Source: a bacterium
Lineage (GTDB): Bacteria > Zhuqueibacterota > Zhuqueibacteria > Zhuqueibacterales > Geothermadaptataceae
Length of the DNA stretch: 45,843 nucleotides
Direction: 5' to 3'
Assembly (NCBI GenBank): GCA_024275575.1
Contig: JAJRYV010000137.1
Location: forward strand, 1 to 45,843
The translations under genes were made by a program, and so were the position numbers. Positions 17,914 through 45,364 of this stretch are shown here, piece after piece. Positions within the stretch are counted from its first letter, which is position 1; each line of letters begins with the position of its first letter. Under the pieces are notes generated by a model. That model did not search any database, was not told where the DNA came from, and saw only the letters and a program-made list of their open reading frames with translations.

Positions 17914-18255
17914 CTAAATCCAAAAGAATAAATACTTCAAAACGATGGACACGACGCTGATGACGAGTGAAGCGATGATCGTCGTGCCGAAACTTTTAAT
18001 CTCGAAACTATCCAGCAGTTTATCTGTCAGCCACAACAGAACTGCATTGATGATGATGGTAAATAGTCCGATGGTGAGAAAAACGGCAGGCAGCGTCAGG
18101 AAAAACAGGACTTTAAACAGAAAAAAATGAACCACACTATAAACCGCGGCGACAATAAAGGCGGTTACATTATTTTTCAGATTGACACCGGGGACAATTT
18201 TCGCGGCTGCCAGAACGCCAACAGCCAGGAATAAAAAACTTTTGATCAGTTCCAT
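17914..18255 (-). CDS. YvlD/phage-holin-family-IV-type membrane protein
   Basis: A 113-residue integral membrane protein with four hydrophobic helices, of the PF04020 family (YvlD, once named phage holin family 4). Signature residues include AAKIVPGVNLKN after helix 1, and FLTLPAVFLTIGLFTIIINA. The ATG at 18255 has AGGAGG 8 bp upstream, which settles the start. The molecular role of the family is not established and the holin name is historical. The gene stands alone, convergent with the dipeptidase gene. Confidence 0.87.
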   Translation of the reverse strand: MELIKSFLFLAVGVLAAAKIVPGVNLKNNVTAFIVAAVYSVVHFFLFKVLFFLTLPAVFLTIGLFTIIINAVLLWLTDKLLDSFEIKSFGTTIIASLVISVVSIVLKYLFFWI

Positions 18256-18337
18256 TGTATTTTCCTCCTCGTTTGTGGAAAGAATCATCTCTGATTTTTC
18301 AAAAAATGAATAAAAAAGCCAATTTCACCAGTTTGAC

Positions 18338-19330
18338 TCAGGCAGTGACAGCAAGTGATTTGGCAAGTTCGATCAGTTCTGCTGTAATTTCATAGCGAAT
18401 AAAGGGTGTAATCAGATAAATGCCGTTGAAATGAATCAAAATTTCAGCCTGCAATTCAGCCGCGATTTTTATGCCCTCTTCCTGCCCTCTTTCATTTTCA
18501 AGTCCTTGCATGCGCTTCAGAGCAAAGTCGGGAATAGTGATTCCCGGCACTTCGTTATGCAAAAATTCTGCGTTGCGCTGGTTTACCAGTGGCATGATGC
18601 CGACGAAAAACGGAATATCAAAATTACGCGCGATCTGTGCCAGTTCTTTTGCCTGTTTGGGATCGTAAATCGGTTGCGTCATCACATAATCGGCGCCGAA
18701 TTTAACCTTTTTTTCCAGCCGCCGCACCTGTGTTTCGATGCGCTGCGTATTAGGATTAAAAGCCACGCCCACTTTAAAATCCGTCGCCTGGTCGAGGGCA
18801 CGGCCGGAAAAAGCGATGCCTTTGTTCATCTGTTTGATCATGCGCACGAGGTTAAAGCTGTTGAGATCGTAAACCGAAGTAGCGCCGGGCTGATCGCCGA
18901 CTTTCGCCGGGTCACCGGTGATCGCGAGAACATAATTGATATCAAACGCATGCAGCCCCATGAGTTGGGCTTGCATGCCGATGAGGTTGCGATCGCGACA
19001 GGCGAGATGGACGAGCGGCATCAGTCCGGTCTCTTTTTGCACGATGTGGCCGAGTGCGAGATTGCTCATGCGGGTGACACCAAGGGAAGAATCAGCCATG
19101 GTCAGGGCGTCGGTGCCGGCGAGTTTGAGCGCTTGTGCCCCGGCGATTATTTTCTGATAATTCAAACCCCGCGGCGGATCGAGCTCGACGATGAATGTCG
19201 GCCGTTTTTTAACGAATTCGAGAATACTGGGCCGCGAATCGATGACTTTTTCCGGCCTGCCAAAAGAGGAGGTTCTCACCAGCGCTGATTTTCGTGAAAT
19301 CGGTTTCATGCCGGAAAGTACTCCGGCCAT
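18338..19330 (-). CDS. methylenetetrahydrofolate reductase domain (C-terminal half of a split fusion)
   Basis: The enzyme domain that reduces 5,10-methylene-THF to 5-methyl-THF using FAD. MTHFR features are FIVELDPPRGLNY, LTMADSSLG, LVHLACRDRNLIGMQ, YVLAITGDP and DYVMTQPIYDP. It occupies the same reading frame as the upstream homocysteine methyltransferase. Only a TGA at 19355-19357 and eight further codons (TTPAHIRA) separate the two. The ATG at 19330 has no Shine-Dalgarno, so translation would depend on reinitiation or readthrough. In homologues of the YitJ type the two domains form one chain of ~610 residues. The gene would supply methyl groups for methionine synthesis. Confidence 0.88.
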   Translation of the reverse strand: MAGVLSGMKPISRKSALVRTSSFGRPEKVIDSRPSILEFVKKRPTFIVELDPPRGLNYQKIIAGAQALKLAGTDALTMADSSLGVTRMSNLALGHIVQKETGLMPLVHLACRDRNLIGMQAQLMGLHAFDINYVLAITGDPAKVGDQPGATSVYDLNSFNLVRMIKQMNKGIAFSGRALDQATDFKVGVAFNPNTQRIETQVRRLEKKVKFGADYVMTQPIYDPKQAKELAQIARNFDIPFFVGIMPLVNQRNAEFLHNEVPGITIPDFALKRMQGLENERGQEEGIKIAAELQAEILIHFNGIYLITPFIRYEITAELIELAKSLAVTA

Positions 19331-19354
19331 GGCACGAATATGCGCCGGTGTTGT

Positions 19355-20170
19355 TCAGCAGCAGCCGCCGATCAGCCGCACACCCTGGTCGCGCAGCCGC
19401 ATGGCGCTGTCGGCAAAATAATCCGGCGTCGAAAGGTATAAATAACGGCCATCGACATAAGCCGGCAAACCGGCGTTGGGGTAGGCTGAAAGCAGCATCC
19501 CCGGACTCAACGCCACTTGTTCCAGAGCATGCAAAATTCCCGCAGGCCCTTTGGCGCAATTTATGCCGAGAACTGCAGCGCCGAGTTTTCGCAGGCGTTT
19601 AAAAATGGGTACGATATGCTGGCCGTCACGCGTGAAGCCGGTCTCATCGACGCTGATTTGTGCGAGAACAGGTAGCTTCGTCAGTTCTGTTGTCGTTTTC
19701 AAGGCGATTTCCAGTTCTTCGGCGCGGGCAAAGGTTTCCAGCAAAATGGCGTCAGGTTGGGCGCTGTCGAGCGCAGCGATTTGTTCTGCAAAAACTTCCT
19801 GCAATTCATCATCGGTGATTTCGTCGGTTTCCCCGGCTTTAACCGGCCCCACCGATGCCAGCACCCAGGCCTTGTCAAGAGCGGCGGCACGGGCAATTTC
19901 CACACCGCGGATATTGATTTCTTCCGTAGTATCGCCGAGCTCAAAACGGTTGAGTTTATGCCGGTTTGCGGTGAAAGTATTGGTCTCGATCGCTTGCGAA
20001 CCGGCTTGCACATATTCGCCAAAAATCTCCCTGATGAGCAGCGGCCGGCTCAAATTGAGCTCGTCAAAACAATGGGTCATGGGGATGCCTTTGCCATAAA
20101 GCAGCGTGCCCATGGCGCCATCGCCGATGACGATATTTTCCTGCAAATAGTCTATAAAAGAAGTGTTCAT
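19355..20170 (-). CDS. homocysteine S-methyltransferase domain (N-terminal half of a split fusion)
   Basis: A zinc-dependent methyltransferase that makes methionine from homocysteine. From the ATG at 20170 it has 271 residues and starts MNTSFIDYLQENIVIGDGAM. A TTG four codons earlier is the alternative start. The three zinc ligands are present: the Cys in GINCAKGP and the two Cys in LIGGCC. The protein stops immediately after these two Cys. Homologues read GGCCGTTPAHI, and here the Gly codon (GGA expected) is TGA, after which the frame continues with TTPAHIRAM into the MTHFR domain. So this is either a nonsense mutation or an error in a single fused gene. The enzyme may still fold, since the missing tail is short. 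Confidence 0.88.
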   Translation of the reverse strand: MNTSFIDYLQENIVIGDGAMGTLLYGKGIPMTHCFDELNLSRPLLIREIFGEYVQAGSQAIETNTFTANRHKLNRFELGDTTEEINIRGVEIARAAALDKAWVLASVGPVKAGETDEITDDELQEVFAEQIAALDSAQPDAILLETFARAEELEIALKTTTELTKLPVLAQISVDETGFTRDGQHIVPIFKRLRKLGAAVLGINCAKGPAGILHALEQVALSPGMLLSAYPNAGLPAYVDGRYLYLSTPDYFADSAMRLRDQGVRLIGGCC

Positions 20171-43835: not shown

Positions 43836-44255
43836 CTATTTAAAAGATGTTTTGGGATTCCGCAGAAAAAAATGATGGCGCTGTTTGCTTCTTTTTATGG
43901 CGAGCATCAGGACTTCTTTTTTATAGTTTGCCAACTGCTCATAAAATGAGTTTACCTCGGTAACGGGTGAATGATCCACCATGATAATGACATCATCTGT
44001 TTTCAGACCGGCGAATGCGGCAGGGCTCAATCGCTGCACTTTGGATACGAGAACACCGTTACGGTTTTCGAGATTTAAATCAAATTGATCTTCAGCATTA
44101 ATTTCACGAACATGCAAACCGAAAAAACGAACCCGTGATCTGTTCGGGCCTTGCGCCGGAGCGGTGTTTTCTTCGATCAGCGTCTGAAGAGTAATTCGAA
44201 TGTTATGAATCTCATCATTTCGCAAATATTCAATCCAGATTGAGTTACCCGGTTT
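43836..44255 (-). pseudogene. detached second PDZ domain of the HtrA-type protease
   Basis: Past the TAA at 44256-44258 the same frame goes on as KPGNSIWIEYLRNDEIHNIR, the end of PDZ1 in DegP/DegQ-type proteins. A second PDZ domain follows (LVSKVQRLSPAAFAGLKTDD, VIIMVDHSPVTEVNSFYEQL), ending KTSFK. With the upstream part it forms a normal-length two-PDZ HtrA of ~478 codons. A TTG at 44225 could start a short PDZ protein, but no Shine-Dalgarno is visible. It is therefore probably untranslated, or made only by readthrough. Confidence 0.75.
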
Positions 44256-45272
44256 TTACTTTGCGATAAAAAATTGTAGTTGATTCGCCCGGTTGAGTTT
44301 TTGGCCATTGATCGAGAGTATCACATCCATGGGTTTCAGGCCAAATTGTTGCGCCGGGCTATCGGTGAACACATCGTCAACAAAAACACCGGCGATTTCC
44401 GTCATTCCAATAGCAGCAGCAATATCAGCGTTGACATCTAAAAATGCAGCACCGAGATATGCCCGCTCAACTTTGCCGGAGGTAATCAATTCGCTGCTTA
44501 TTTTGCGCACCAGGTTTGCTGGAACCGCAAAACCGAAACCCATGTTCAAACCATTCTCGGTTGCAATTGCCGTGTTAATGCCGATGATTTCGCCGTTCAT
44601 ATTGACCAGTGGGCCACCGCTATTGCCGGGGTTTATCGCAGCGTCTGTCTGAATAAATGCTTCGATCGCATAACTGTTGTTGATAATATCAATCTCCCTT
44701 CCCAGGGCGCTGATAATCCCTGAAGTAACGGTGAATTTTAAATTGAGCGGATTTCCAACGGCCAGGACCCAATCTCCAACCCTGCATGCTCCGGAATCAC
44801 CGAGACGTGCAAAATCGAGTTTATCAGCGTCAATTTTAATGACAGCCACTTCGGTTAAACCGTCGCGTCCAACAACCTTAGCCGCAAAATGTCGCTTGTC
44901 ATATAACGTTACATCGATTTTTAATGCATCCTGTACGAGATGACTATTGGTGATGATATAACCATCTGGAGAAATGATGATACCGGCACCCGAACTCATT
45001 TTTTGCAGTGAAATTTTTGGTTCTTTTACTGCATTTCGGTTGACGGCCAGGAAGTTATCATTATGATGCCGGATGCGCTTTTGAATATCAATTCGTGCAG
45101 TCGCCGGTAGAATTTTTTCAACGATATTACTAAACGAATATCTTCTCTCCGCCGTCGGCCGGTCTGAAACTGTTAAATCCTGGGCATATGCGTTGTTACA
45201 AATGCTGACAAACAGGCAAAAGAAAATCGTAATTTTCCAGCTAAATCTATCATGCCGGAGTTTATATACCAT
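44256..45272 (-). CDS. htrA: HtrA/Deg-type S1C serine protease, interrupted after PDZ1
   Basis: 338 residues from the ATG at 45272, which starts the signal peptide (ITIFFCLFVSICNNAYAQ) and has AAGG upstream. The trypsin-like domain shows His111 (YIITNSHLV) and Ser218 (NPGNSGGPLV). The position of the catalytic Asp (usual TDLAVIKI) reads TEVAVIKI, with Glu141. PDZ1 (AGVFVDDVFTDSPAQQFGLK; DVILSINGQKLN) is cut by a TAA at 44256 before its last strands. Family members degrade misfolded envelope proteins. Here activity may be weak or lost. It is flanked by the DnaJ homologue and an anti-sigma kinase gene. Confidence 0.85.
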   Translation of the reverse strand: MVYKLRHDRFSWKITIFFCLFVSICNNAYAQDLTVSDRPTAERRYSFSNIVEKILPATARIDIQKRIRHHNDNFLAVNRNAVKEPKISLQKMSSGAGIIISPDGYIITNSHLVQDALKIDVTLYDKRHFAAKVVGRDGLTEVAVIKIDADKLDFARLGDSGACRVGDWVLAVGNPLNLKFTVTSGIISALGREIDIINNSYAIEAFIQTDAAINPGNSGGPLVNMNGEIIGINTAIATENGLNMGFGFAVPANLVRKISSELITSGKVERAYLGAAFLDVNADIAAAIGMTEIAGVFVDDVFTDSPAQQFGLKPMDVILSINGQKLNRANQLQFFIAK

Positions 45273-45364
45273 CAATTTAAACCTTATTTTATGGAAATCA
45301 CGCCGTAGATGCAATTCGTCTTCACGGCTTTAGAGCAAATGACTATATGTCTTTCGAAAGCAAT

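Follow-up and report, generated by a model that had tools for sequence, protein, structure and literature searches.

A single in-frame TGA, very probably a wrong base in the draft genome, interrupts a YitJ-type homocysteine S-methyltransferase/methylenetetrahydrofolate reductase fusion gene

The window (the whole stretch of 45,843 nucleotides that was analysed) carries the gene for a homocysteine S-methyltransferase/methylenetetrahydrofolate reductase (MTHFR) fusion that is cut in two by one in-frame TGA. We consider this TGA very probably to be a consensus or assembly error; in the organism the enzyme would then be ordinary, an intact fusion of the YitJ type. We suggest that a wrong consensus base in the draft genome, which is probably metagenome-assembled, turned GGA into TGA by a G-to-T change on the coding strand. 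The TGA would belong to a set of scattered single-base lesions that also cut alaS, glmS, argG, pyrG, surA, the gene of a DegP-type protease and others, and their cause would be technical (a consensus drawn from low read depth, 8-oxoguanine-type damage to library DNA, or both) and not mutation in the cells. We favour error because comparable in-frame stops cut alaS, glmS, pyrG, argG and further genes in the same assembly.

The frame of the fusion gene runs on the minus strand from 20182 to 18338 and, when translated, has the TGA (19357..19355) as its single internal stop; the plus strand over 18338..20170 holds no such fusion frame. Around the stop the translation reads RLIGGCC, stop, TTPAHIRAMAGVLSG, and in longer context GVRLIGGCC, stop, TTPAHIRAMAGVLSGMKP. 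The methyltransferase half matches PF02574 over positions 1-269 of 283 (E 1e-55) and could also be aligned with the T. maritima MetH structure 1q7m. The GGCC present in this N-terminal domain is the zinc motif of the family. The MTHFR half, in the same frame, carries a PF02219 domain; this downstream piece is 338 aa long counted from the TGA, with its first ATG at 19330. On NF006396/PRK08645 (NCBIfam, 611 positions) the upstream piece covers 3-270 and the downstream piece 272-604; this goes beyond a chance match of frames. Both domains that define a YitJ-type fusion are present, and what is absent from the sequence as given is the uninterrupted frame. The gene resembles the YitJ-type fusions (NF006396, PRK08645) in domain order, in length (610 codons compared with the 611-position model), in the GGCC and in having both halves in register, and differs from them in the TGA that replaces the Gly codon after GGCC. 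The yitJ gene of B. subtilis is a named example of such a bifunctional methyltransferase/MTHFR fusion (PMC9618320). The genome has two further S-methyltransferase genes besides the fusion; no second MTHFR copy was found in it, and the PF02219 domain of the fusion gene is the sole one. The next gene downstream of the fusion (17914-18288, minus strand), which is syntenic in the same-genus genome G001, codes for a small Phage_holin_4_2 (PF04020) membrane protein.

Table 1. Coordinates of the fusion gene, its parts and other interrupted genes of the assembly (positions in the window unless a locus is named)
Feature	Location	Strand	Remarks
Homocysteine S-methyltransferase/methylenetetrahydrofolate reductase fusion, YitJ-type, NF006396	18338..20170	-	one in-frame TGA; syntenic with G001:C11
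Homocysteine S-methyltransferase half	19358..20170	-	271 aa from ATG at 20170; ends ...GGCC; domain end past the zinc cysteines missing
In-frame TGA	19355..19357	-	Gly in every compared homologue; GGA in G001
MTHFR half as stand-alone ORF	18338..19330	-	330 aa; ATG at 19330; Shine-Dalgarno not evident
SECIS-like hairpin GCCGGA-GUACUU-UCCGGC	19310..19327	-	loop start 33 nt past TGA; judged fortuitous
Do-family (DegP/HtrA) serine protease, second interrupted gene in the window	43839..45329	-	TAA at 44258-44256; GAA in G001, uninterrupted
alaS	L078:8567-11221		one TAA
argG	L087:5988-7268		one TAA
glmS	L091:10796-12655		one TAA
pyrG	L074:6569-8308		one TAA

Evidence for an error comes from other genes. 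We scanned sampled stretches of this draft genome that total 1.22 Mb, the window and L056 among them, for stops that break a frame which is otherwise coding throughout, and found 11 conserved genes besides the fusion that are cut by one in-frame stop (nine TAA, two TAG). A single family model spans the stop in alaS, argG, glmS, surA and the genes for a PorV-family protein, an M14 carboxypeptidase and the window's DegP-type protease; a model likewise runs across the stop in pyrG, ldcA and the genes for a histidine kinase and a GWxTD-domain protein. For four of the cut genes alignments with solved structures were also made. Verified lesions thus counted amount to ~10 per Mb in the sample, a figure that leaves out the stop in a DUF3179 gene (L163, 19079), which looks like a real selenocysteine (Sec) codon, and the stop in a BamB-like repeat protein (L087, 4686), where the repeats blur the spanning match. 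Whole-genome searches returned a single full-length copy each of alaS, argG and glmS, and it is that copy which contains the internal TAA. In relatives AlaRS and GlmS are free of interruption, and ArgG is intact in G001, where the sole reported TGA lies shortly ahead of the point at which the coding match begins. AlaRS is indispensable to cells, and neither GlmS nor PyrG is expected to be dispensable, so that at least the stops in alaS, glmS and pyrG are not part of the living genome as written. Lesions comparable to the TGA are found in genes that cannot be lost (alaS, glmS, argG and pyrG, all with TAA), which argues for error.

Comparison with G001, whose contig C11 is syntenic with the window, points the same way. 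By eye, the genuine genes of the window are interrupted twice (19357 and 44258), and the syntenic stretch of G001:C11 shows no such lesion among the matches listed; the other matches in the comparison are antisense frames or lie before start codons. Stop junctions that lack a start codon within the 20 codons that follow number 11.5 per Mb here versus 2.3 per Mb in G001, a roughly five-fold difference obtained with one filter and with a coding model trained separately on each genome; the underlying candidate counts are 14 and 2 (one-sided binomial P ~0.014, calculated by hand).

At the stops in AlaRS, GlmS and the DegP-type protease G001 has GAA, and in the fusion GGA, so that wherever the same-genus codon gives a clear precursor, at four sites, the change is G-to-T at the first codon position of the coding strand (GAA to TAA three times, GGA to TGA once); under uniform error, given codon usage, this has P = 0.0017, for a class that rests on four codons. 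For ArgG, PyrG and SurA the comparison gives no clear precursor: at the ArgG stop G001 has GAT and solved homologues have Glu or Thr, and the nearest solved structures have Lys in PyrG and Gln in SurA. Private single-base changes in four genes show no clear excess of G-to-T: 5 of 15 when three filter-passing stops are included, and 2 of 12 when they are left out. Oxidised guanine in library DNA is known to give rise to G-to-T artefacts, as Costello et al. reportedly described (2013; in the reference list of PMC5994075). The lesions in this assembly are like such G:C>T:A artefacts, or like low-depth consensus errors, in being scattered single-base changes, in being G-to-T at 4/4 clear sites and in striking genes that must be intact; unlike artefacts of the 8-oxoguanine type, the missense changes here lack a clear excess of the class. 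Damage of this type may be the source of the lesions; given the private missense changes, a low-depth consensus alone may account for them.

The initial annotation had described a TGA that splits a methyltransferase/MTHFR fusion and takes the place of the Gly in a conserved GGCCG. Its coordinates and its single frame are correct, the strand, which it left unstated, is the minus strand, and the alignment of homologues that it called for bears out the conserved Gly: the codon at the TGA position specifies Gly in 30/30 distinct homologous loci read (28 from relatives, from the same genus outwards, and two that are the genome's other methyltransferase genes). It had also remarked that the first domain ends exactly after its zinc cysteines. 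This is accurate as a description of the sequence; as to meaning, we regard it as a coincidence of a GGA codon lying there. In a pattern scan of 82 genomes of the phylum, no other case of a TGA at this place in the fusion gene was found; a second match, in G066, was a chance one that lies opposite the frame of another protein. Compared with G001, dN/dS is 0.069 for the methyltransferase half and 0.049 for the MTHFR half; with synonymous sites almost saturated, these values are rough. They indicate strong purifying selection on both halves and give no sign of decay or relaxed selection in either.

Of the biological explanations, the one that survives best, though we think it unlikely, is a genuine nonsense mutation of very recent date, or a strain polymorphism, by which the methyltransferase half would be inactive and the MTHFR half would be made weakly or not at all. 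The change from GGA to TGA is a single step, the two other S-methyltransferase genes would back up the methyltransferase function, and decay is not expected if the mutation is very recent. However, error is needed in any case for the stops in alaS, glmS and pyrG, which a living lineage cannot carry, and the mutation would strike an MTHFR that has no second copy.

Recoding of the UGA as Sec immediately behind the pair of zinc cysteines, which would give a GGCCU methyltransferase under the direction of the downstream hairpin, seems to us very improbable. To judge from its genes, the organism decodes Sec: tRNA-Sec (anticodon TCA) and SelB are both encoded on contig C138, and SelD and a DUF3179 protein each have an in-frame TGA in their genes. 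The SelD gene (L059, G000:C75:49781-50704, minus strand) encodes CG-U-AAK, and its TGA is followed at 17 nt by a strong SECIS-like hairpin, CGAGCCC-GGTC-GGGCTTG. The DUF3179 gene (L163:18512-19354, plus strand, TGA at 19079) encodes AY-U-PLV with a hairpin 19 nt downstream and likely specifies a genuine selenoprotein; for this family a 2026 selenoproteome review gives a UxxC/T Sec motif (PMC13188914). The hairpin behind the fusion-gene TGA passes the bSECIS model of the same review (6-bp stem, loop GUACUU, 33 nt, -9.9 kcal/mol). Across the window genes no more than 0.9% of codon positions have an equally good hairpin at that energy, a point against error; when the peptide was recoded synonymously, just 0.6% of the versions matched it. 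The fusion gene is like those of SelD and the DUF3179 protein in having an in-frame TGA and then a hairpin with a G in the apical loop; in those two genes, however, the TGA occupies a known Sec position and the loop starts at 17-19 nt, whereas here it stands at a Gly position, one that is never Cys in the homologous loci, and the loop starts 33 nt on (the comparison is with two likely real SECIS elements, a small number). The lack of any companion TGA among the 82 phylum genomes also argues against Sec, and the TAA and TAG interruptions elsewhere in the assembly cannot be Sec. Since TGA should make up ~15% of background stops, one TGA among the lesions needs no special cause. The words 'homocysteine' and 'methylenetetrahydrofolate' are both absent from the 2026 review (PMC13188914). 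Were recoding true, Sec would have arisen at a Gly position beside the zinc site of a methyltransferase, with use of the hairpin 33 nt downstream, in a selenoprotein family that we did not find in the review.

We give still less credence to a tolerated split into two polypeptides, in which the MTHFR half would reinitiate at the in-frame ATG 24 nt past the stop. Stand-alone MTHFR and methyltransferase proteins do occur in other bacteria. Against this, the methyltransferase half would be without the end of its domain, and none of the relatives in which the codon was read is split at the site. The absence of an evident Shine-Dalgarno before this ATG had been pointed out at the outset and stands, but the ATG is no evolved start: it codes for a Met found in most relatives of the order. 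Least credible of all is near-cognate readthrough of the UGA to yield some full-length fusion. Some UGA readthrough happens in bacteria and both halves are conserved, but the other genes of the genome that are cut by TAA would be left unexplained. We reject a change of genetic code, as TAA, TGA and TAG all terminate long ORFs (216, 126 and 66 in the sample). Among the four readings that the initial annotation had offered, error is strongly favoured, and nonsense mutation, readthrough and a tolerated split find no support as biology.

A lone in-frame stop next to catalytic residues, when the genome decodes Sec and a SECIS-like hairpin lies behind the stop, can look like recoding and yet be explicable by assembly error. 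Users of this genome should treat gene splits by single stops as suspect; extrapolated from the sample, there may be ~50 of them.
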